DNA of 64,000 nucleotides. Source: Gemmobacter aquarius. GTDB lineage: Bacteria; Pseudomonadota; Alphaproteobacteria; Rhodobacterales; Rhodobacteraceae. Under the pieces are notes generated by a model, which saw only the letters and a list, made by a program, of their open reading frames with translations, did not search any database and was not told the DNA's origin. Below are positions 6,090 through 44,604 of the stretch, piece by piece. Each line of letters starts with the position of its first letter. Position 1 is the stretch's first letter. The position numbers and the translations under genes were made by a program. The DNA lies in contig NZ_CP028918.1 in NCBI RefSeq assembly GCF_003060865.1, forward strand, positions 2,096,001 to 2,160,000. The letters run 5' to 3'.

Positions 6090-8677
6090 AACTCCTCTCC
6101 ATCGAACTCTCCGACGTCCGCCGCTTCGTCGCCCCCGTCCGCATCGAAGGTATCGGCCCCGGCCTGAACGTGCTCTGCGCGCCCAACGAATTCGGCAAAT
6201 CCACCCTTTTCGACGCGCTGCAAGCCCTGTTCTTCCAACCCCACCGCTCGAAATCCAAGGAAATCAACGCCCTGCGCCCGCATGTCGGCGGCTCGCCCTG
6301 CGTCACGATCGAGGTCGAACTGAACGGAACCAGCTACACCCTGTCCAAACGCTGGCTCGGCAAGGCGCAGGCAACGGTGCATCGCAGCGGCACGCTCATC
6401 CACCAAGCCGACGACGCCGAAGCCTTCATCTCCGCCCTCGTAAAGGCCGAAGGCGATGGCGGCCCCGCAGGCCTATTGTGGGTGCGTCAGGGGCTGACAC
6501 GGCTCGAAGGCGAAGGCGACACCCCCACCGAAAAGACCGCCGCCAAAGCTGCCCGCCGCAACCTGATGACTTCGGTCACAGGCGAGGTCGAAGCCCTGAC
6601 CGGCGGCCGCCGCATGGACAAGGCGCTTGCCCGCACGCGTGAGGAACTGGCGAAATACGTCACCGCCACAGGCAGGCCGTTCAAGGGCGGCCCCCTCTCC
6701 GATGCCGAAGCCCTCGTCGCCACCCTTAGCGAAGACAAGACGCGCCTCGAAACCACCGCCCGCCAACTGACCGCTGCCCTCCAGCGCCGCCGCGAGGTTG
6801 TCAAATCCCTGACCATCCTCTCCGCACCGGATGAGGTCGAAGCCCGCCAGACCCGCCTTACCGAAGCCACCCGTCACCTCGACGAAGCCAAGCGCCACGC
6901 AGATGCGCTCGCCACCGCCGCCCTCACCCTGCAAAGCGCGGAACTGGCGCAGGCCAACCTGTCCGACCGCCTGTCGAATCTGAACCGTGCGAAATCCGCC
7001 TGCGCGAAAGCCGCAGCCGACCTGCAAGCCGCCGAAGCCACAGCCCGCATCGCGAAAGACGCAAGCGCAGACGCCGAAGCCGCCCTTACCCCCCATGCCG
7101 CAGCCCTCGCCGCCGCCCGCAGCGCCAAGATCGCCGCCGATGCCGAACTGGCCGAGGCGAACCGCGCCTTCGCAACCCAAGCCGCCGTCGCTCGCCGCAA
7201 CGACCTCGCCGAGCGCATCGCCAAGTCCCGCGCCCTGACGGAACGCCGCGCACCCTTGGCGCAAGCCGCCGCACGCGGCCCCGACGCCAAGGCACTGGCC
7301 AACCTGCAAAATCTGTCGCAGGCCGCAGCCCTCGAACGCGCCCTGCGCGACCGCAGCGCCGCGCAGATCACCGTCCACCACACCGGCCCCGCCCGCGTAA
7401 CCAGCAACGGAAACCCCGTTCCCGAAACCCCGCTTCCCCTGCTGGCCGAAACCCGCTTCGACATGCCGGGCCTCGGGCACTTCACCGTCAAACCCGCCGC
7501 CGGAAACGACAGCGACGATCTCGCCCGCGCCGAAGCGGCCCTCGCCGCCGCCCTGTCGCACCTCGGCCAGCCCGATCTGGCCACCGCTCAAGCCGCAGCG
7601 ACCGCACGCTCTGACGCAACCGCCGCCTTGCGCGATCTCGACTCCGCCCTCGCCTCCCTTGCCCCGCAGGGCCTGCCCTCGCTCGAAGCCGAACTGTCCG
7701 CCCTGCCCGAAGCCATCCCGCCCCGCGCGAACCTGCCCACCGTGGCCGAAGCGCAGACCGCAGCCGATCACGCAAGCATCGCCCTGCAAGCCGCTGAAAC
7801 CGAATATGATTCCACCCGCAGCGAAGCCGAACGCCTGCGCACCGCCGAAGTCCGCGCCAGCGTAAACGCAGCCAGCCTCGCCACCGAACGCGCCCGCACC
7901 GAAGCCGCCCTCGCCGCCTTCGGCCCCGATGCCGAAGCCACCCTCGCCCCGCAACTGGCCAACGCCACAACAACGCTCACCGCAGCCCGCGCCAACCACG
8001 CGGCACTTCTCGCCGCCGCTCCCGACCTGATCGCCGCCAAAGCCGGTTTCGACCGCGCCACCTCCATCGTCGAAAGCGCCCGCAACGATACCACGCGCCT
8101 GCAAATGGAACGCGCCCAACTCGATACGGAAATCAAGATCCAGTCCGGAGCGGGCGTCATGGAGGACCTCGCCGACACCACGACCCGCCTTGCCGCAGCC
8201 ACCGAAACCCTCGCCACCATCAGCTTCGAAGTCGCCGTCCTCAAGGAACTCGCAGCCACGCTAGAGGCCGCCCGCAACGAAGCCCGCGACCGATATTTCG
8301 AACCCGTCCTCGCCGAACTGCGGCCCCTCCTGCGGATGCTCTGGCCCGATGCCGAACTGCGCCTCGATGGCGAAAGCCTGCTTCCCACCGCCCTCGTCCG
8401 CGACGGGCGCGAAGAACCGCTGTCGATCCTGTCAGGCGGCACGCAGGAACAGATCGCCCTCCTCGTCCGCCTCGCCTTCGCCCGCCTGCTCGCCTCGCGC
8501 GGGCAGCCCGCCCCGATCATCTTCGACGACGCGCTGGTCTACACCGACGACGACCGCATCGAAAAGATGTTCAACGCCCTGCACGCGCAAGCATCGGGCC
8601 AGCAGATCATCGTACTCAGCTGTCGCCAACGGGCCTTTCGCGATCTCGGCGGAACCACCCTATCCCTGCAAGAATGA
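6086..8677 (+). CDS. SbcC/YhaN-like SMC-family ATPase (AAA domain, long coiled coil)
   Basis: 863 residues. The Walker A is APNEFGKST (32-40); the C-terminal half-ATPase has an LSGGTQEQ signature near 781, Walker B IIFDDAL near 811 and an H-loop-like VLSCRQRAF near the end. The middle 600 residues are Ala/Glu/Arg-rich and coiled-coil-like. A central stretch (about 435-480, TVHHTGPARVTSNGNP) breaks the coil but has no CxxC zinc hook. Together with the upstream phosphoesterase it should form a Rad50/Mre11-like complex that tethers and trims DNA ends. The second acidic Walker B residue is Asp where Glu is usual. Confidence 0.9.
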   Translation: MKLLSIELSDVRRFVAPVRIEGIGPGLNVLCAPNEFGKSTLFDALQALFFQPHRSKSKEINALRPHVGGSPCVTIEVELNGTSYTLSKRWLGKAQATVHRSGTLIHQADDAEAFISALVKAEGDGGPAGLLWVRQGLTRLEGEGDTPTEKTAAKAARRNLMTSVTGEVEALTGGRRMDKALARTREELAKYVTATGRPFKGGPLSDAEALVATLSEDKTRLETTARQLTAALQRRREVVKSLTILSAPDEVEARQTRLTEATRHLDEAKRHADALATAALTLQSAELAQANLSDRLSNLNRAKSACAKAAADLQAAEATARIAKDASADAEAALTPHAAALAAARSAKIAADAELAEANRAFATQAAVARRNDLAERIAKSRALTERRAPLAQAAARGPDAKALANLQNLSQAAALERALRDRSAAQITVHHTGPARVTSNGNPVPETPLPLLAETRFDMPGLGHFTVKPAAGNDSDDLARAEAALAAALSHLGQPDLATAQAAATARSDATAALRDLDSALASLAPQGLPSLEAELSALPEAIPPRANLPTVAEAQTAADHASIALQAAETEYDSTRSEAERLRTAEVRASVNAASLATERARTEAALAAFGPDAEATLAPQLANATTTLTAARANHAALLAAAPDLIAAKAGFDRATSIVESARNDTTRLQMERAQLDTEIKIQSGAGVMEDLADTTTRLAAATETLATISFEVAVLKELAATLEAARNEARDRYFEPVLAELRPLLRMLWPDAELRLDGESLLPTALVRDGREEPLSILSGGTQEQIALLVRLAFARLLASRGQPAPIIFDDALVYTDDDRIEKMFNALHAQASGQQIIVLSCRQRAFRDLGGTTLSLQE

Positions 8678-35020: not shown

Positions 35021-35095
35021 TCCGGCGTAGCTCAGCGGTAGAGCAGTTGACTGTTAATCAATTGGTCGTAGGTTCGATCCCTACCGCCGGAGCCA
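35021..35095 (+). tRNA. tRNA-Asn (anticodon GTT)
   Basis: 75 nt. The acceptor arms TCCGGCG and CGCCGGA pair perfectly. The anticodon stem GTTGA/TCAAT encloses the loop CTGTTAA, giving anticodon GTT at 35053-35055. The T arm is GTAGG-TTCGATC-CCTAC, and the discriminator G is followed by an encoded CCA. Confidence 0.97.
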
Positions 35096-36062: not shown

Positions 36063-36992
36063 ATGGGGACGAGCAATTACAGCGACGAGTTCAAGCGTTA
36101 CGCGGTGCAGCAGATCCGGGTGCGTGGGTATCCGGTTCGTGAGGTTTCGTAGCGCCTCGGGGTGAGTTCGCACTCGCTTTACAAGTGGCTTCGACTGTTT
36201 GCCGAGCCTTCGGCGAAGGTCGTCGGCGTGCAGGCCTGGTCCGAGAGCGGCAAGGTCTACGGCTATCGCAAGCTGGCTGACGATCTGCGCGATCAGGGGG
36301 AGCAGGTCTCCGAGAACCGGGTCGCCCGGCTGGCTGGCCTTGCGGGCATCGCCGCCCAGATCGGCTACAAGCGCCGCCCGGGACGATATGGCGGGAAGCC
36401 TGCTGTGGTCGCGTCCAACACCTTGGACCGCCAGTTCGAGGTCGATGCGCCCGACAAGGTCTGGGTGACCGACATCACCTACATCAAGACCCACGAGGGC
36501 TGGCTATGCCTGTCTGTCGTCATCGACCTCATCTCGCGCCCCTCGCCATGGGCCTCGGACCAGTGGCGGCACCATGGCTCGAGGTGGGCTGGTCCGCCCG
36601 GCCCCGCATGACAACCGACCTGGCGCTGCAGGCCCTGCTTGCAGCCGTCTGGCGGCGCAAACCCACGGCCAAGGTGATGATCCATTCTGACCAGGGATCG
36701 CAGTTGACGTTGCCGCGAGTGGCAGGTGTTCCTTGCCCGGCATAATCTTGAGCCCAGCATGAGCCGCCGCGGGAACTGCCATGATAATACGATGGCCGAA
36801 AGCTTCTTCCAGCTCTTGAAGCGGGAACGCATCCGACACCACACCTACCTAACCCGCGATGCGGCAAGGCAGGACGTCTTCGAGTACATCGAGATGTTCT
36901 ACAACCAGAAGCGCAAACACACGAACAATGGCATGCTGTCGCCAGTTGACTTCGAAATCAGGCAGCAGAAACTGAACGAGGCAGGTGTCTAG
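36063..36992 (+). pseudogene. IS3-family transposase remnants (orfA plus orfB)
   Basis: The orfA helix-turn-helix starts at 36063 (MGTSNYSDEFKRYAVQQIRV) but meets an in-frame TAG at 36150. The same frame then continues ([19 protein letters not shown]) and jumps straight into the middle of orfB, showing an internal deletion. The DDE core is spread over frames: [13 protein letters not shown] (first Asp) in frame one, IHSDQGSQ (second Asp) after a frameshift near 36540-36600, and SRRGNCHDNTMAESFF (Glu) after a second frameshift near 36710. At least four lesions are visible. Confidence 0.88.
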
Positions 36993-37351: not shown

Positions 37352-38059
37352 TTAGACCGAGACGCCGAAGATACGGCCCACGCCCGCCGTGATGGCCATC
37401 GCCGCAGCGCCCCAGAAAAGCACGCGCGCGGTGGCCCGCAGTTTCGGCGCACCGCCCGCGTGCGCACCCAAGGCACCAAGTCCTGCAAGGCTGATCAGCG
37501 TGGCGACCACCACGGCGGCGATGATCCACGAGTCCGGTGCCAGCGCGGCAGCGGCCATCGGCACGGCGGCGGCCAGCGTAAAGGTCAGGCCCGACGCGAA
37601 GGCCGCCTGCAACGGGTTCGCCGTATGCACCTCAGACAGCCCCAACTCGTCACGCACATGCGCGGCCAGCGCGTCCCTTTCCGTTAACTCGCGCGCAACC
37701 AAGGCAGCCGTCTGCGGCGACAGACCGCGGGATTCGTAGATCGAGGCCAGCTCCTGCTCTTCCGCCTCGGGCGTGTCGACCAGCGCCTGTTTCTCGCGCG
37801 CGATATCTGCGCGTTCCACGTCGGATTGCGAACTCACCGACACGTATTCGCCCGCCGCCATCGACATGGCCCCCGCCGCAAGCCCCGCAGCGCCAGCAAT
37901 CAGAATCGCCGCACGGCCGGGATCGGCTGCGGCTACCCCCACGATCAGCGAGGCGACCGACACGATGCCGTCATTCGCCCCAAGCACAGCAGCACGCAGC
38001 CACCCCGCGCGGTCGAGGTAATGCAGTTCCTGATGGGCGGATTGGTAGGCGAGGGTCAT
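37352..38059 (-). CDS. VIT1/CCC1-family iron/manganese transporter
   Basis: 235 residues. Family marks are GWLRAAVLGANDGIVSVASLIVGVA in TM1, the GLAAGAMSMAAGEYVSVSSQSDVE segment, a Glu-rich cytoplasmic metal-binding helix (TPEAEEQELASIYESRG) and three C-terminal helices. Such proteins move Fe(II) or Mn(II) out of the cytoplasm. The start overlaps the stop of the histidine kinase by 4 bases, so the transporter is the last gene of a two-component operon. This ties the sensor system to metal handling. Confidence 0.9.
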   Translation of the reverse strand: MTLAYQSAHQELHYLDRAGWLRAAVLGANDGIVSVASLIVGVAAADPGRAAILIAGAAGLAAGAMSMAAGEYVSVSSQSDVERADIAREKQALVDTPEAEEQELASIYESRGLSPQTAALVARELTERDALAAHVRDELGLSEVHTANPLQAAFASGLTFTLAAAVPMAAAALAPDSWIIAAVVVATLISLAGLGALGAHAGGAPKLRATARVLFWGAAAMAITAGVGRIFGVSV

Positions 38060-39402
38060 GATGGTCTTTCCGTCATACTGGATGGGTCAGGGATAAGGCC
38101 GATGCTGGCGCGAAAGCCGTCGTTCCGGCCCGGAATGGGCGACTGCAATAAAAGCGTCGATCCGATGCGTCCGGCGATGGTCTGGACGATGGCAAGCCCA
38201 AGCCCGCTGCCCTCGCCGCCGCCGACCCGTACGAAACGGTCGGTCAATATCGCCATCCGCTCGGACGGGATCGAAGCACCGCCATTCTCTACCGTAAGGC
38301 GACCCGAGGTGTCGAGCGTAACCGTAATCGCCGCATTGCCGCCGTGTCGCAGCGCGTTCTCGATCAGGTTGCGTGTCACGATTGCTGCCGCATCTGGATC
38401 AACCGTCGAGGGCACGGCCACGTCAGGCAAAGCCAGATGCAACCGCGCCACATCGCGCTCGCCGCGGAAATCCTGCGCCACGAGCGCGACGATGGCCGCG
38501 ATGTCGGCAGCTTTGTCGACCACCAGTCGCGCCCCCTCGGCACGGGCGAGTTGCATCAGCTTTTCCGACAGCCGCGTCAGCCGTTTCAAAGTGGCCTCCA
38601 CCTCGTCGGCGCGCCGTCTGGTGTCGGCATCGGTGGATTGCTGTCGCAAGCGCTGCACCTGCGCCAACGCTCCGGCAAGCGGCGTGCGCAATTCATGCGC
38701 GGCGTTGGCAGCGAAACTACGCTCGGCGGCAAAGGATGTCTCGAGCCGCGCCAGAAGGTCATTCACAGTATCGGCCACGGGCCGCAGTTCGGTCGGCAGC
38801 CCCTCGCGCGCCAAGGGCGTCAGACGGTCGGCACTGCGCCGCGCCAACTGGTCGCGCAGGCGGTCCAGCGGACGCAAACCGAAACCCAGCCCGTAAAAGA
38901 TCGCCACCACGCTCAGCGGCACCGTGACCAGCAGCGGCAATGCCAGCGCGACCACCATCTCGACAGCCACCTCGCGGCGATGCGACAAAGGTTCGGCGAT
39001 GGTCAGGATCACCGTGCCGCTAACAGCAGTCTCCTGATAGAAGCGCAGGCCGTTCGCATCGTGGAACCCCTCGGCATCGAACAGCGGAAACTCCGCAGGC
39101 TCGGCCCGATGAGAGGTCAGCAGCAGCGCCCCCGCCCGGTCGCGCACCACATAGGTGAAATGTTCCTCATGCGCGGCAAGTCCCGTGACACGGCGGGTGA
39201 CCCCCGCCTCCTCGCGGTTCAGCACATCGACGACGGCCAGTTGCAGGATACGTTGCCCCGTCTCCTGCAACGCGGAATCGAACACTTCGTCCATCTCGTC
39301 CGACAACAGCCTTGCAGTCAGCGCCGCCGTCACCAGCCACAGGGCCGTGACGATCAGCGACAGCGCAACCGCCGACCTTATGCGGATCGACGCGCCCTTC
39401 AT
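38056..39402 (-). CDS. Sensor histidine kinase, QseC/TctE type
   Basis: 448 residues. TM1 (about 9-31) and a second membrane segment (about 152-175) flank a periplasmic sensor. The phospho-acceptor box is FAANAAHELRTPLAGALAQ, the N-box NLIENALRHGG and the G-box GGGEGSGLGLAIVQTI. The start at 39402 gives an N-terminus MKGASIRIRSAV typical of this family and overlaps the regulator stop by 4 bases. The kinase is followed, again with overlap, by the VIT1 gene. Confidence 0.92.
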   Translation of the reverse strand: MKGASIRIRSAVALSLIVTALWLVTAALTARLLSDEMDEVFDSALQETGQRILQLAVVDVLNREEAGVTRRVTGLAAHEEHFTYVVRDRAGALLLTSHRAEPAEFPLFDAEGFHDANGLRFYQETAVSGTVILTIAEPLSHRREVAVEMVVALALPLLVTVPLSVVAIFYGLGFGLRPLDRLRDQLARRSADRLTPLAREGLPTELRPVADTVNDLLARLETSFAAERSFAANAAHELRTPLAGALAQVQRLRQQSTDADTRRRADEVEATLKRLTRLSEKLMQLARAEGARLVVDKAADIAAIVALVAQDFRGERDVARLHLALPDVAVPSTVDPDAAAIVTRNLIENALRHGGNAAITVTLDTSGRLTVENGGASIPSERMAILTDRFVRVGGGEGSGLGLAIVQTIAGRIGSTLLLQSPIPGRNDGFRASIGLIPDPSSMTERPS

Positions 39403-40058
39403 GGCCGCGCCATGCGGTAGCCCAGCCCGCGCTCGGTCACGATCAGATCGGCCCCGAGTTTCTTGCGCAACCGGCTGATGTGGACTTCGATCGTGTTGCT
39501 CTCGACCTCGCTGTCGAAGGAATAGAGCCGCTCTTCCAGCACCGGCTTCGACAAGAGCTGACCCGGCTTTTGCAGGAACGCCTCGAACAGCACCCATTCG
39601 CGCGCGGTCAGCGGCACCGGCTTTCCGGCCCGCGTCAGACTGCGGGCGGCAATGTCGACAGAAAGCTCGCCCAGTTCGATGCGCGGATTGGGGTTGCCCG
39701 CATAGCGGCGCGACACCGACCCGATCCGCGCCGACAACTCGCTCAGATCGAACGGCTTGACCAGATAGTCGTCCGCGCCCGCATTCAGCCCCTCGATCCG
39801 GTCGGACACCTGATCGAGCGCGGTCATGATGATCACGGGCGTCGTATCGCCCTTGGCCCGCAAGCCGCGCAGAAACGGCAGACCCCGCCCGTCAGGCAGC
39901 ATCAGGTCAAGCAGGATCAGGTCGAAATGCGCCACCGCCAAGGCATCGCCCGCCTCGTCCAGCCGTGCGGCATGGTCGATGGAATGTCCCTCGCTTTCGG
40001 CCTGCTCGCGCACGGCCCCTGCGATCACGCGATCATCCTCGACCAGCAGTATCCGCAT
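39399..40058 (-). CDS. OmpR/QseB-family response regulator
   Basis: 219 residues. The receiver domain has the acidic pocket (LLVEDDRVI), the phospho-acceptor Asp in LILLDLMLPDG and the conserved Lys in DDYLVKPF. The C-terminal winged helix carries LTAREWVLFEAFLQ and NTIEVHISRLRKKLG. It heads the regulator-kinase-VIT1 operon, and its target is most likely the large dyad 54-105 bp upstream of its start, which also faces the PepSY operon. Confidence 0.93.
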   Translation of the reverse strand: MRILLVEDDRVIAGAVREQAESEGHSIDHAARLDEAGDALAVAHFDLILLDLMLPDGRGLPFLRGLRAKGDTTPVIIMTALDQVSDRIEGLNAGADDYLVKPFDLSELSARIGSVSRRYAGNPNPRIELGELSVDIAARSLTRAGKPVPLTAREWVLFEAFLQKPGQLLSKPVLEERLYSFDSEVESNTIEVHISRLRKKLGADLIVTERGLGYRMARP

Positions 40059-40114
40059 CCTGTCCCCGTTCCCGGCCATCCTCGGCCAATCCTGCGCCCT
40101 GCTATTGTGCCAAC

Positions 40115-40163
40115 CTGACGCGGACCTGAAGCGAATTTTTTCACCCCTTCAGGCAGGCGTCAG
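40115..40163. promoter_or_regulatory. Large dyad operator between the two-component operon and the PepSY/flavin operon
   Basis: The left arm is CTGACGCGGACCTGAAG (40115-40131). The right arm, read on the minus strand, is CTGACGCCTGCCTGAAG (40147-40163); 14 of 17 bases agree. Within each arm the unit CCTGA(C/A)G recurs 11 bp apart, the spacing used by OmpR-family regulators. The 15-bp centre contains a T6 run. A binding site for the adjacent response regulator is very likely. Confidence 0.7.
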
Positions 40164-40210
40164 CTTCGGGAACCAAAAGCACCGCGTGGAAGCGATCCGG
40201 AGTGTCACGC

Positions 40211-40531
40211 ATGATCCGCCTGTCAACAAGCCTTGTGATCGTCGGTCTGCTGGCAGCAGGGCCCGCATTCGCAAAGGCCGATTGCGCCGTTCCGATGGCC
40301 AGATGGCAACCGCGCGATGCGGTCGCGGCCTTTGCCGGTGAAAACGGCTGGCGCGTCTCGCGCATCCGTCTTGATGACGGTTGCTACGAGGTGACGGGCT
40401 TCGACGCCAAAGGACGCAGGATCGAGGTCAAGCTCGATCCTGCATCCCTGTCGATCCTCGAGATGGAATACGAGGACGACGACGGCGGCGAAGGTGAGGA
40501 CGGCGAAGACCACGAAGGCGCTGATGACTGA
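40211..40531 (+). CDS. Periplasmic PepSY-domain protein
   Basis: 106 residues. A signal peptide (MIRLSTSLVIVGLLAAGPAFA) is followed by a single PepSY-like domain (WQPRDAVAAFAGENGWRVSRIRLDDGCYEVTGFDAKGRRIEVKLDPASLSILEME). The C-terminus is strongly acidic (DDDGGEGEDGEDHEG). Small PepSY proteins commonly lie next to two-component systems and PepSY-type reductases. Here it is the first gene after the dyad operator and may modulate the sensor kinase or accept metal through its tail. Confidence 0.85.
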   Translation: MIRLSTSLVIVGLLAAGPAFAKADCAVPMARWQPRDAVAAFAGENGWRVSRIRLDDGCYEVTGFDAKGRRIEVKLDPASLSILEMEYEDDDGGEGEDGEDHEGADD

Positions 40532-40577
40532 GCAGGCGCAGTCCACCTCTACCCCAACAGAACAAGGAAATAACGCC

Positions 40578-40961
40578 ATGAAACAGGCAATCACCCTCCT
40601 CATCGCTGGCAGCGCCATCAGCCTTGCGGGCGCGGCCTTCGCCGGTGCCGCAGCGGCACCCGCACATGCCTTTGTCTTTGAAGGCCCCACCATGGACACC
40701 GCTACCGCGACCCGCGCACCGCTCTGGCGCGTCAGCGGCGACGATGACGAAGGTGAAGACGGCGAAGGCTGGTTCTTCTCCAAATCGGCGGGCGGCGAGT
40801 CCGACGAAGAAGGGGGAGACGACAACTGCGATGACGATGACGACGAAGACGGCGGCTGCACCGCAGGCGCGGCAGGCAATGCCGCCCCCGCAGGCACCGT
40901 CGCCCCGCCCAGGAACGGCCTTTTCACCAACGGCACCGCGCCGCAGGTCAAAACGAACTGA
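40578..40961 (+). CDS. Secreted Asp/Glu-rich protein of unknown function
   Basis: 127 residues. A signal peptide (MKQAITLLIAGSAISLAGAAFA) leads to a low-complexity body with runs of Asp and Glu (DDDEGEDGEGWFF and DDNCDDDDDEDGGC) and an Ala/Gly/Pro-rich tail. Two cysteines bracket the longest acidic run and could form a disulfide. No known domain is seen. Acidic clusters of this kind usually bind divalent or trivalent cations; given the metal and redox genes around it, a periplasmic metal-binding role is a reasonable guess. Confidence 0.7.
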   Translation: MKQAITLLIAGSAISLAGAAFAGAAAAPAHAFVFEGPTMDTATATRAPLWRVSGDDDEGEDGEGWFFSKSAGGESDEEGGDDNCDDDDDEDGGCTAGAAGNAAPAGTVAPPRNGLFTNGTAPQVKTN

Positions 40962-40974
40962 ACGGAGTATCCAC

Positions 40975-41445
40975 ATGAAACCGCTTCACGCAGCCCTTGC
41001 CCTGACCACCGCGATCATTGCCCCCGGTCTCGCCGCAGCCCGCCCTGTCACCCTGACCACGAACCTCGCGCCCTATGGCGGGCGCGGGGCCTATCTCGCC
41101 TTTTACGTCACCGATGCCTCGGGGGCCTATGCGGGCAGCCTGTGGATGGCGGGCGGAAAGTCCAAGTATTACCGCCACCTGTCGGACTGGGCCCGCCTGA
41201 CCGGCGGCGATGTCGCACAGGTCGACGGCATCACGGGGGCCAGCGTCGGCTCGGGCCAAAGCCTCGATCTGACGATGGACCTTGCCGATGCGCTCTTCGA
41301 TGCGGGCTACACGCTGCACATCGACGCCGCCGCCGAAGACATGCGCGAAAGCCCGAACGAAATCGCTGTGCCGTTGACGACGACAGGCGCGGGCCAGCCC
41401 GTGCAGGGCCGCCGCTACATCGCCGATTTCAGCTACGCCTTCTGA
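40975..41445 (+). CDS. DUF2271 protein, possible flavinylated electron carrier
   Basis: 156 residues with a signal peptide (to about residue 22). The DUF2271 core is evident (YLAFYVTDASGAYAGSLWMAGGKSKYYRHLSDW). Residues 84-90 read DGITGAS, close to the Dxx(S/T)GA(T/S) motif that ApbE modifies with FMN in FMN-bind domains; Ser90 would be the attachment residue. ApbE and a PepSY/flavodoxin reductase are encoded in the same operon. A periplasmic FMN carrier is therefore plausible. The domain call is good; flavinylation is inference. Confidence 0.75.
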   Translation: MKPLHAALALTTAIIAPGLAAARPVTLTTNLAPYGGRGAYLAFYVTDASGAYAGSLWMAGGKSKYYRHLSDWARLTGGDVAQVDGITGASVGSGQSLDLTMDLADALFDAGYTLHIDAAAEDMRESPNEIAVPLTTTGAGQPVQGRRYIADFSYAF

Positions 41446-41456
41446 CAGGACCGATC

Positions 41457-43664
41457 ATGCTCCGCTCACTCCACCGCTGGCCCGGCCTCTTGGCCGCCGT
41501 CCTCGTGCTTGCCCTGTCGCTTAGCGGCGTGGCCCTGTCGGTCTTTCCGGCGGTGGAGGCCATATCCGCACCCCCCGCCGTGGCGGGCCAGACCGTGGCC
41601 GACCTTGCCGCCAAGGTTCAGGCAACCCACCCGACCGTCGAACAGATCCGCCGCGCACCTTCGGGCCGCATCACCGCCTACTGGTTCGACGGCAACACGC
41701 CCGGCTCTGCCGTGATCGACCCCGCGACCGGACAGGACGCAGGCAGCGCCGACCCGTCAGCGTTCAGGACGTGGCTGACCGATTTCCACCGCGCCCTTCT
41801 CATGGAAGATGCAGGCCGCTGGACCACCGCCGCGGCGGCTCTGGCGATGCTGGTCCTGTCGGTCTCTGGCGCGGCACTCGTCGCCCGCCGTCAGGGCGGA
41901 TGGCGCAAGTGGTTCGCCCCGATGCGCGGCCCCGCTGCCGGTCGCTGGCACGGCGAATTCGCACGGGTCGCGGTCGCGACGCTGACCCTTTCCGCCTTCA
42001 CCGCGCTCTGGATGACGGCATCGACCTTCGACCTTCTGCCCGCGGACGAGGCGAACGCCGCCTTCCCCGCGACCGTCAGCGGCCAGACCGGCCTTTCCCC
42101 CGCCGCCATGCCCGCGCTTGCCGCCGTTCCCGTCGCAGATCTGCGCGACCTGACCTTTCCTTATGCCGGAGACGCGACCGATGCCTTTGCCCTGACCACG
42201 TCGCAAGGCACCGGCTTCGTCGACCAGGGCACAGGCGCGCTTCTGGTCTGGGCGGTAAACGGGCCTTGGGCGAACATCGGCGAATGGATCTACCTGTTGC
42301 ACACCGGCGAAGGCGCGGCATTCTGGGGCCTGATCCTTGGCCTTGCCACCCTCGCCGCTCCCGTCCTTGCCGTGACCGGAACGCTGGTCTGGCTGCGCAA
42401 CCGCCGAAACCGACCCTCTGTCGCGGGCATGGCCAGCGCGGGCAAGGCTGAAACCGTGATCCTCGTCGCCAGCGAAGGCGGCAGCACTTGGGGCTTTGCC
42501 AAGGCCCTCGGCCACGCCCTGCAACAGGCGGGCGGCAGCGTCCACATCGCCCCGCTTTCCGCCTTTGCCCCGCAGGCCTACAGCGCAGCCCAGCGCATCC
42601 TGATCATGGCCGCCACATGGGGTGACGGCGATGCCCCCGCCGCATCGCAAAGCGCGCTTGGACGGGTCGCCGCAGCCGCCCCGCATCCCACAGCACGCCT
42701 TGCTGTCCTCGGCTTCGGCGACCGCAGTTTTCCCGCCTTCTGCGGCTATGCCGAAGCCATCGACACCGCGGCCCGCGCCGCCGGATGGCAGATGCTGCTT
42801 CCCCTCGACCGCATCGACCGACACTCCGCGCAAGCCTTCGCCCGCTGGTCGGCCACCCTGGGCGAGGCAATCGGCACCCCGCTTTCGGCAATCCACCAGC
42901 CCGAACCGCCGCGGACGACTGCACTCACCCTCGTCACCCGCCGCGACTATGGCGAGGCCGTGCAAGCCCCCACCGCCATCCTGCGCTTCGCCCTGCCCAG
43001 CGCCTCGCTTTTCGACCGGATCGCTGGCCGCGGCCTGCCGCGCTTTCAACCTGGCGACCTTCTGGGTATCGTCCCCCAAGGCAGCAGCGTGCCGCGCTAC
43101 TACTCGCTCGCCTCGGGCACGGGCGACGGCTTCGTCGAGATCGTCGTGCGTAAACACCCCGGCGGCCTCTGCTCGGGGCAGTTGCTTGACCTTTCCGCAG
43201 GCCAGTCCGTGCAGGGCTTCGTCAAACCGAACCCCAGCTTCAGGCCCGACCGCAGCGATGCGCCGCTGATCCTCGTCGGCGCAGGCACCGGAATCGGCCC
43301 GCTGGCGGGCATCATCCGCGCCAATACCCGCCGTCGCCCGATCTATCTGTGGTTCGGTGCGCGCCACCCACAGGCGGATTTCCTGTATGGTGCCGACCTC
43401 GACCTCTGGTCCGCCTCGGGCCAGCTTGCCAATCTCGCCACCGCCTTCTCGCGCACGGCAACGCGGCACTATGTGCAAGACCGCCTGCGCGCCGATGCCG
43501 AACGCATCCGCGACCTCGTATCCAAGGGGGGCCGCATCATGGTCTGCGGCGGTCGCGAAATGGCCCAAGGCGTGCGCGAGACGCTCGCCGAAATCCTTGC
43601 CCCGGCTGGGCTTTCCCCCGCCACCCTGAAAGCCGGAGGCCGCTATGCCGAAGACAGCTACTGA
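41457..43664 (+). CDS. PepSY-membrane / flavodoxin / FAD-NAD(P) reductase fusion
   Basis: 735 residues. The N-terminal 325 residues are a PepSY-associated membrane region (LRSLHRWPGLLAAVLVLALS, a periplasmic PepSY part, WLTDFHRALLMED, IYLLHTGEGAAFWGLILGL). A flavodoxin-like domain follows at about 335-470 (VILVASEGGSTWGFAKALG, AATWGDGDAP, LGFGDRSFPAFCGYA). Then comes a sulfite-reductase-type FAD domain (RYYSLASG at about 545) and an NAD(P) domain (LVGAGTGIGPLAG, GGREMAQGVRETLAEI). It should carry electrons from cytoplasmic NAD(P)H across the inner membrane to periplasmic acceptors such as the DUF2271 protein. Confidence 0.88.
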   Translation: MLRSLHRWPGLLAAVLVLALSLSGVALSVFPAVEAISAPPAVAGQTVADLAAKVQATHPTVEQIRRAPSGRITAYWFDGNTPGSAVIDPATGQDAGSADPSAFRTWLTDFHRALLMEDAGRWTTAAAALAMLVLSVSGAALVARRQGGWRKWFAPMRGPAAGRWHGEFARVAVATLTLSAFTALWMTASTFDLLPADEANAAFPATVSGQTGLSPAAMPALAAVPVADLRDLTFPYAGDATDAFALTTSQGTGFVDQGTGALLVWAVNGPWANIGEWIYLLHTGEGAAFWGLILGLATLAAPVLAVTGTLVWLRNRRNRPSVAGMASAGKAETVILVASEGGSTWGFAKALGHALQQAGGSVHIAPLSAFAPQAYSAAQRILIMAATWGDGDAPAASQSALGRVAAAAPHPTARLAVLGFGDRSFPAFCGYAEAIDTAARAAGWQMLLPLDRIDRHSAQAFARWSATLGEAIGTPLSAIHQPEPPRTTALTLVTRRDYGEAVQAPTAILRFALPSASLFDRIAGRGLPRFQPGDLLGIVPQGSSVPRYYSLASGTGDGFVEIVVRKHPGGLCSGQLLDLSAGQSVQGFVKPNPSFRPDRSDAPLILVGAGTGIGPLAGIIRANTRRRPIYLWFGARHPQADFLYGADLDLWSASGQLANLATAFSRTATRHYVQDRLRADAERIRDLVSKGGRIMVCGGREMAQGVRETLAEILAPAGLSPATLKAGGRYAEDSY

Positions 43665-44604
43665 CACCGCCCAAACTCGACTGAACGGTGCGACGATGGG
43701 CACGGAGTGGAGCGTCCTCGTCCATGCGCCCCTCTCGACATCCTCCCACGCCGCCCTACAAACCGACCTGCAACGCACCGTGGACGAGGTCGACAACCAG
43801 ATGTCGACATGGAAACCCGACTCGGCACTGATGAGGTTCAACGCAGCCCCCGTCGAAGTTTGGCACGCCATGCCAAAGCATCTGTTGCAGGTGCTTCAGA
43901 CCGGTCTGGCCATCAGCGCCATCAGCAAAGGGGCGTTCGAAATGAACCTCGGCGATGCGGTCCGCGCCTGGGGCTTCTCGTCCGACGCCATCGACCTCGC
44001 TGCCATCAGGTCGGCCAGCGCAGCCCCCCGCGTTCCCGCCCTCGCGGCGCTCGACCTCGACCTTCCCGCCGGCCTCGCCCGCAAGACAGCACCCCTCGCG
44101 CTCGACCTTTCCGGCATCGCCAAGGGTTACGGCGTCGACCGGCTGGCCGAAACCGTCGTGGCGTATGGCATCGCCCACGCCCTTTGCGCCATCGACGGCG
44201 AAGTCCGCGCGGTCGGAACACGGGCGGACGGCGCTCCTTGGTCGGTCGGTATCGACGCACCCGACAGCGGCTTGCGTGGCAGCCATTCCGTGATCGCACT
44301 CGCCAACGCCGCCGTCGCCACCTCGGGCGATTATCGCCATTTCCTGACGATCCGCAACACGCGGCTGTCCCACACGATGGACCCGTCCACCCGAGCGCCA
44401 GTCATCGAAGCTCCGGCTTCGGTCACGGTGCTTGGGCAATCTTGCGTGTTTGCTGATGCGATGGCTACCGCCCTGATGGTCACGGGGCGTACCCGTGCCA
44501 GGCGCCTTGCTGTGGACCAAGGCATAAGTGCGCTTTTACTCGAAAGGTCTGGCGAACTGCTTTGCACTGGTCTGTTCAAAGACACGGCTCGCTTGATCAA
44601 CTGA
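43645..44604 (+). CDS. apbE: FAD:protein FMN transferase (ApbE family)
   Basis: 319 residues. The N-terminal NGATMGTEWSV motif, MSTWKPDSALMRFN, the SGIAKGYGVDRLAE segment and SGDYRHFLT...LSHTMDP are all diagnostic of ApbE. It attaches FMN from FAD to a Thr/Ser of target proteins, usually in the periplasm. No clear signal peptide is visible from this start, so the site of action is uncertain. The start overlaps the reductase gene by 20 bases. The DUF2271 protein in the operon is its most likely target. Confidence 0.93.
   Translation: MPKTATDTAQTRLNGATMGTEWSVLVHAPLSTSSHAALQTDLQRTVDEVDNQMSTWKPDSALMRFNAAPVEVWHAMPKHLLQVLQTGLAISAISKGAFEMNLGDAVRAWGFSSDAIDLAAIRSASAAPRVPALAALDLDLPAGLARKTAPLALDLSGIAKGYGVDRLAETVVAYGIAHALCAIDGEVRAVGTRADGAPWSVGIDAPDSGLRGSHSVIALANAAVATSGDYRHFLTIRNTRLSHTMDPSTRAPVIEAPASVTVLGQSCVFADAMATALMVTGRTRARRLAVDQGISALLLERSGELLCTGLFKDTARLIN

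Follow-up and report, generated by a model that had tools for sequence, protein, structure and literature searches.

A two-component system joined to a PepSY-like flavin electron-transfer cluster in Gemmobacter aquarius: a candidate metal-response module of the cell envelope

Gemmobacter aquarius carries eight clustered genes in the 64,000-nucleotide stretch analyzed here (the window; NCBI RefSeq assembly GCF_003060865.1, contig NZ_CP028918.1, positions 2,096,001 to 2,160,000, forward strand). Genes for a VIT1-family transporter, a sensor kinase and a response regulator lie on the minus strand, followed on the plus strand by genes for a PepSY_2 protein, an Asp-rich protein, a DUF2271 protein, a reductase fusion and the flavin transferase ApbE. 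All eight genes named in a preliminary description of this DNA were confirmed, and the overlaps reported there, between regulator and kinase (39399-39402) and between kinase and VIT1 (38056-38059), are exactly 4 bases each. Its gene content places the unit among the PepSY-like flavinylation systems, from which it departs in one usual feature that was looked for, a leader on ApbE. Its features are as follows.

37352..38059, minus strand: VIT1-family transporter, 235 aa, without a ferritin-like domain (PF01988, 220.4 bits, profile 1-214 of 214)
38056..39402, minus strand: QseC-like sensor histidine kinase, 448 aa (2CSK_N, HisKA and HATPase_c)
39286..39297, minus strand: ExxE codons (E36-x-x-E39) of the kinase, directly after the first transmembrane segment (TM1), conserved in aligned kinases
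39399..40058, minus strand: OmpR/PmrA-QseB-like response regulator, 219 aa (PF00072 receiver and PF00486 winged-helix output)
40115..40131, plus strand: operator-like arm 1, CTGACG-N5-CTGAAG, two half-sites 11 bp apart
40147..40163, minus strand: operator-like arm 2, the same motif inverted
40211..40531, plus strand: small PepSY_2 protein, 106 aa, with a hydrophobic leader and an acidic C-terminal end (PF13670, 88.8 bits, E 2.4e-25; leader score 2.27)
40578..40961, plus strand: Asp-rich protein with hydrophobic leader, 127 aa, of an unnamed family (leader score 2.15)
40878..40958, plus strand: conserved C-terminal peptide NAAPAGTVAPPRNGLFTNGTAPQVKTN of the Asp-rich protein, recurring in relatives
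40975..41445, plus strand: DUF2271 protein, predicted FMN acceptor, 156 aa (PF10029, E 2.1e-31; Sec-type leader by eye)
41233..41244, plus strand: TGAS codons, predicted flavinylation site T87-S90 of DUF2271, followed in the family survey
41457..43664, plus strand: PepSY_TM/flavodoxin/FAD-NAD(P) reductase fusion, 735 aa (PF03929, PF00258 and PF00175)
43645..44604, plus strand: ApbE flavin transferase without signal peptide, 319 aa (PF02424, E 3.9e-69), overlapping the fusion gene by 20 bases

This gene order is shared by relatives in two collections of genomes. A family survey covered 198 genomes from 197 genera, sampled from a larger group, and found DUF2271 relatives in 40 of them, the window's own genome counted; 43 loci were fetched around the non-own matches, of which 36 were fully and 33 widely spanned once those cut by a contig end had been excluded. 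The reductase fusion and ApbE are present in all 36 fully spanned loci, and a divergent regulator/kinase pair adjoins this core in 33 of them, in line with the earlier proposal that a two-component system stands next to flavin electron-transfer genes and that metal transporters are close by. PepSY_2 lies upstream of DUF2271 in 28 of the 36, while a C-terminal NGLF tail (see below) occurs in 25, a b561 gene in 12 and a ferric-reductase-like gene in five. A named scan confirmed at least 563 relatives, the best 80 of which form a set biased by its selection through similarity and sequence patterns; one pattern, GITGASVG[AS], contains the flavinylation motif, so the occurrence of TGAS in this set was rejected as independent support and the family survey alone counts in that respect. 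Dropping loci cut by contig ends reduced the 80 to 68 fully or 60 widely spanned loci, and the two-component system is found in 65 of the 68. The 14 nearest named loci (L077-L090) include those of Gemmobacter straminiformis, Gemmobacter lanyuensis, Rhodobacter kunshanensis and Tabrizicola rongguiensis; 12 keep the window order within contig reach, including VIT1 behind the kinase, and in L082 and L084 the contig stops short of the VIT1 position. Given the relatives in both collections, the idea of a cluster unique to the G. aquarius genome was rejected.

Between the regulator and PepSY_2 genes lie two operator-like arms, each a tandem pair of half-sites of the form CT(G/T)A(A/C)-N6-CT(G/T)A(A/C), mostly CTGAC-N6-CTGAA, and mutually inverted. 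The paired-site test took in 37 of 44 loci (the window and 36 others), leaving out L062, in which the regulator start was unaligned, and L042, L045, L063, L065, L071 and L072, in which no regulator was found within the stretch covered. All 37 have both arms, at a spacing of 17-18 bp in every locus except L059 (33 bp); among 7400 first-order Markov shuffles the forward arm arose in 0.09% and both arms in none. The best-80 named set gave the same picture, with both arms in 72 of 74 testable loci and the forward arm missing from L123 and L141. In the strict form CTGAMG-N5-CTGAAG, the motif occurs twice in the 4.2 Mb genome, both times in the shared promoter region, in a search whose chance level is about 1, a reversed-pattern control having given a single match; the genome-wide search covered the strict form alone, so other targets of the regulator are possible. 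Such paired sites are the pattern expected for an OmpR-type regulator with a local target, and the regulator of the window probably binds them. BqsR of Pseudomonas aeruginosa likewise has a tandem half-site DNA motif. Consensus motifs for Fur, Irr and RirA picked out no clear box in the promoter region: out of 300 random windows, 239 reached the best match for Fur, 209 that for ICE, 32 that for RirA and 151 that for Fur/Mur. A promoter and terminator scan returned only chance-level signal. In a plasmid version of the cluster, an extra operator-like site precedes the second PepSY gene (L157, 19425; L158, 11425).

The two-component system matches NCBIfam models only below their cut-offs. QseC is the best NCBIfam match of the kinase, with PmrB also near and all scores below cut-off, and identity to Escherichia coli QseC is 27%; the regulator scores 204.6 bits against PmrA (cut-off 330) and is below cut-off for QseB as well. 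Just outside TM1 the kinase carries an ExxE pair, with E36 kept in 30 and E39 in 29 of the 32 kinases aligned from the 44 loci, and in a predicted model (19 sequences, mean pLDDT 78, pTM 0.50) the pair sits on a long helix. ExxE is a motif of several iron-sensing kinases (PMC12666569), for which it is a necessary and not a sufficient mark; by this analogy, it lends support to the earlier suggestion that the sensor may read metal or redox state. The view that ExxE is a generic QseC feature was rejected, as E. coli QseC has Asn opposite E36 in the single comparison made. BqsRS/CarRS of P. aeruginosa shares a sensor kinase with a periplasmic ExxE on a helix but has another regulon, and the residues flanking the putative sensor motif of the window differ from those described for it (PMC12666569). 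Acidic stretches occur within the sensor domain of some relatives' kinases (L064, L066 and L160, 6232-7584). Through the PepSY_2 protein, which has a leader by hydropathy, the locus also shares the arrangement of DbfQRS of Vibrio cholerae, in which the small secreted PepSY protein DbfQ is encoded next to a kinase and regulator and controls that kinase (PMC12714742). That system differs in serving biofilm and envelope control, and the portion of the report available mentions no flavin set (PMC12714742). A search for solved relatives of PepSY_2 returned nothing significant (best E 0.58). Between PepSY_2 and a tailed PepSY gene, L040 encodes a protein of 200 residues (6606-7208) that starts like a leader and by eye may resemble hemerythrin.

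The flavin electron-transfer set includes the DUF2271 protein and the fusion. In support of the preliminary description, DUF2271 has a flavinylation motif, TGAS in the window, which makes it a predicted FMN acceptor at T87-S90. Across the 43 loci of the family survey the motif reads TGAS in 37, TGGS in three, SGAS in two and SGGS in one, that is, [ST]GA[ST] in 39 and [ST]GGS in four, and TGAS is flavinylated in a different DUF2271 protein (PMC8238504). The model of the window protein (mean pLDDT 75.3) had no PDB fold match at E<=0.001, with weak C2-like sandwiches only. In the fusion, H6, H111, H165 and H282 are invariant in all 117 aligned sequences and are predicted heme ligands, fitting a two-heme scheme; a PepSY protein with two histidine-ligated hemes has been described (PMC11334425). 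The reductase half matches the CysJ model below its cut-off and resembles diflavin reductases in the PDB (chains of nitric oxide synthase, sulfite reductase and P450 reductase), which suggests NADPH as the likely electron donor. The clustering of this PF03929 protein with a flavinylation gene is what places the unit among PepSY-like flavinylation systems.

ApbE lacks room for a signal peptide, since an in-frame stop stands five codons before its start and its gene overlaps that of the fusion by 20 bases. By a hydropathy rule, no ApbE in 117 loci has a leader (highest score 1.2; E. coli ApbE 2.68) and DUF2271 leaders score at least 1.4 in 123 of 124 loci, the exception being L062, with a start that is not intact; this contrast rests on score ranges compared post hoc under a rule that is not a trained predictor and whose preset threshold of 2.0 was passed by 42 of the 124 DUF2271 leaders. 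A cruder earlier rule had flagged two of the 117 ApbEs (L063 and L071), where the examined stretch extended into the enzyme itself. A twin-arginine-like pair was seen in one of the 124 DUF2271 leaders. Secretion is usual for characterized ApbEs (PMC12052999), though outside the definition of the PepSY-like system (PMC8238504), and the window enzyme, the sole ApbE match in its genome, departs from it. Most characterized ApbEs are lipoproteins, and periplasmic location was essential in an early test; cytosolic ApbEs also exist, and the target in Klebsiella is a cytosolic fumarate reductase (PMC12052999). Because ApbE is leaderless and alone in the genome while DUF2271 is apparently exported, simple periplasmic flavinylation fits poorly. 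We tentatively propose, as a possibility that is itself doubtful, that DUF2271 may receive FMN in the cytoplasm from the leaderless ApbE made together with the reductase and be exported via Sec already flavinylated, with the NGLF-tailed acidic partner bringing the metal. Flavinylation before export would be the simplest novel reading of the leaderless enzyme; the alternatives are an unusual route of ApbE export or a cytosolic target so far unrecognized.

Neither Pfam nor NCBIfam has a model that matches the Asp-rich protein, and a search of its own genome gave, apart from the protein itself, a single further match at chance level (E 2). It had been described as an Asp-rich secreted protein: the hydrophobic leader and acidic character stand, but the composition is not extreme here, with 22 D/E against 5 K/R in the 105 residues past position 22, and long poly-Asp runs occur in the proteins of some relatives. 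Among about 5.8 billion proteins, a search with its C-terminal part gave 64 candidates and 49 homologues, and no Pfam domain is listed for any of the homologues. The C-terminal peptide PPxNGLFxxGxxP recurs in 29 of the 44 loci; NGLF was a condition of the search, which by itself makes these four letters constant, and the positions left free are nonetheless conserved (P before x-NGLF 29/29, the following G 28/29, P 29/29) while synonymous codons vary. The tail end is degenerate in L064. In some relatives, such as L034, L056 and L060, the tail is found on a PepSY_2-like protein instead; its presence on different proteins indicates that it behaves as a module, one that may serve in docking. L060 has the NGLF tail in repeated form.

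VIT1 and other exporter-family genes accompany the core in part of the family. The window protein matches PDB 6iu3 'VIT1' (E 4.6e-19), and its VIT domain covers the whole profile. Its identification as MbfA was rejected, since it has 235 aa and a VIT domain only, with no ferritin-like domain before it; a second VIT-domain gene in the genome (C1:337439-337855, L167) encodes 329 aa with an N-terminal half that is ferritin-like by eye, and is thus MbfA-like. Among the 33 widely spanned family loci, VIT1 is in tandem with the kinase in three and downstream of ApbE in 13, and a P-type ATPase gene is found in 13. VIT1 was accordingly rejected as an essential part: its presence in only 16 of the 33 makes it optional and not the heart of the system. 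A heavy-metal P-type ATPase or VIT1 occurs in 17 of the 33 family and 33 of the 60 named loci, and the metal exporters of relatives favor the idea of metal export put forward earlier. In L034, the P-type ATPase passes the cut-offs of the heavy-metal and cadmium-family models but not the one set for the copper model. A VIT protein has been described that works as an Fe2+/H+ exchanger and reduces the iron content of E. coli cells (PMC5309874).

The closest described relatives are the PepSY-like flavinylation systems, which share a PepSY_TM protein with an NAD-binding domain, a DUF2271 protein with [ST]GA[ST], and ApbE, and in which VIT1 was counted in 167 of 3220 clusters (PMC8238504). Compared with the published account, the window adds an adjoining two-component system, paired sites, PepSY_2 and an NGLF-tailed Asp-rich protein, and its unit has no DUF4198 and an ApbE without leader; the main text of that account contains 'two-component' once, in the reference list (PMC8238504). 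The hmz genes of Cupriavidus metallidurans CH34, with a suggested role in iron, share a two-component system, a ferric reductase, cytochrome b561 and a VIT1-related gene, but include RND efflux genes; the portion of the account consulted names no PepSY or ApbE, and DUF2271 is absent from the main text (PMC13192273). The likeness is one of described gene content. The preliminary statement that this gene set was undescribed can hold at most for the whole set, of which no description was seen in the open-licence literature consulted, and not for its parts, since the PepSY_TM/DUF2271/ApbE core with its VIT1 association is published (PMC8238504) and hmz is related (PMC13192273). The electron-transfer core and its association with VIT1 were known before; the present analysis adds the adjoining two-component system, the paired sites, the NGLF-tailed protein, the leaderless ApbE and the exporters and conjugative plasmids of relatives.

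Among PepSY proteins, UipA of Microbacterium is said to bind iron. It has also been found to bind uranyl. Its PepSY character, the negative charge on one of its faces and the two-component system genes nearby (UipRS) recall the unit described here, but it is a single-pass membrane protein with two PepSY domains (PMC8963506).

On balance, we lean towards the view that the unit is a self-contained metal-response module, in which metal-sensing control is coupled to NADPH-driven metal reduction in the envelope and to metal export. The QseC-like kinase, aided by the exported PepSY_2 protein, would sense a metal outside the inner membrane, most likely iron, which is favored because of ExxE and VIT1. 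The phosphorylated regulator would then bind the two inverted tandem sites and turn on both operons. The fusion would draw electrons from cytosolic NADPH via FAD and FMN and pass them across two membrane hemes to the FMN on DUF2271, which would in turn reduce a metal bound to the acidic proteins, most probably ferric iron. Of these, the Asp-rich one may buffer the metal and dock through its NGLF tail, and VIT1, in some relatives together with a P-type ATPase, would export surplus divalent metal from the cytosol.

Several observations weigh against this reading. Three of the 36 family loci have the core without a two-component system, VIT1 was not found in range in 17 of the 33 widely spanned loci, and a second Gemmobacter genome (L031) has all parts except a nearby VIT1. 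The search for strict sites has a chance level of about 1, and of eight plasmid loci only L157, L158, L159 and L162 have both arms, with one in L164 and none in L160, L161 and L163, so the motif does not extend to the Cupriavidus and Janthinobacterium copies. The leaderless ApbE misfits simple periplasmic flavinylation, and DbfS, a related kinase, gave no response to iron (PMC12714742). Finally, PepSY/DUF2271/DUF4198 relatives in Caulobacter are Fur-repressed iron-starvation genes (PMC3751524) that matter under EDTA, favoring uptake in that branch (PMC12004947); two of them are also lower in a zur mutant (PMC4176598). These Caulobacter data support a serious though unlikely rival, iron assimilation, in which periplasmic ferric reduction would supply ferrous import and VIT1 would act as importer or cycling partner. 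Iron uptake is also the published reading of PepSY-like clusters bearing VIT1 (PMC8238504), and iron mobilization through cycling has been suggested for hmz (PMC13192273). However, neither DUF4198 nor a TonB receptor is among the proteins of the window unit (the relatives were not searched for them), no Fur or Irr box was conspicuous by consensus motifs, control lies with a two-component system, the partners in relatives belong to exporter families, and the VIT protein studied in PMC5309874 moved Fe2+ out of the cytosol.

Mobile copies of the core bear on the same question. A search of 72,556 plasmid records found DUF2271 relatives on 97. Of these, 71 are predicted to be conjugative, although 38 of the 97 are from Pseudosulfitobacter, so that independent cases are overcounted. 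Eight plasmid regions were inspected, L160 being read through open reading frames. One Salipiger and one Sulfitobacter plasmid carry the whole set with a P-type ATPase and VIT1, and on the former mer genes are some 9 kb away from the gene for the kinase. On a Klebsiella plasmid the two-component system, a ferric-reductase-like protein, PepSY, DUF2271, the fusion and VIT1/CCC1 are encoded, with no ApbE match within the stretch; CDF and P-type ATPase genes adjoin the Cupriavidus copy, CzcA-type (RND) efflux genes adjoin the Janthinobacterium copy, and a VIT gene lies near the Rhizobium copy on the opposite strand. In 14 of the best-80 named set, a ferric-reductase-like protein is at least 97% identical to that of L034; it spans genera including Salipiger, Pseudooceanicola, Marivita, Sulfitobacter and Roseovarius, a distribution that indicates recent transfer. 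That conjugative plasmids carry the core together with metal exporters suggests that it serves under metal excess, as opposed to the published iron-uptake reading. The same conjugative copies, mer and exporter neighbors and near-identical reductases would also suit reductive detoxification of another metal or an oxyanion on mobile resistance elements, with a substrate that is not iron. We regard this as improbable: VIT1 and ExxE are more in keeping with iron or manganese, the copy in the window lies on the 3.7 Mb contig C1 and has no second in its genome, and plasmid linkage may be mere co-residence. A response to envelope stress with redox repair, for instance of proteins or quinones, and with the acidic proteins and VIT1 as bystanders, seems very improbable, for although DbfQRS responds to outer membrane stress and not to iron (PMC12714742) and a metal is only the putative final electron acceptor of the unit, no repair enzyme is among the window unit proteins and acidic proteins and metal transporters recur in relatives.

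Beyond ApbE the window continues with LysR, isochorismatase and hydantoinase genes. On the VIT1 side, remnants of an IS3-type transposase (HTH_21 and rve, 36162-36992) separate VIT1 from a tRNA-Asn gene at 35021-35095.

The locus ties a widespread, poorly understood flavin core to one putative switch, the paired sites, whose strict form is found nowhere else in the genome. The leaderless ApbE makes the place of flavinylation directly testable. If DUF2271 is indeed modified before export, this would sidestep the problem of supplying FAD to an ApbE in the periplasm and would represent a pre-export form of a modification that the literature available to us otherwise places outside the cytosol for secreted targets. 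The NGLF tail, for its part, is a conserved peptide without a known partner.

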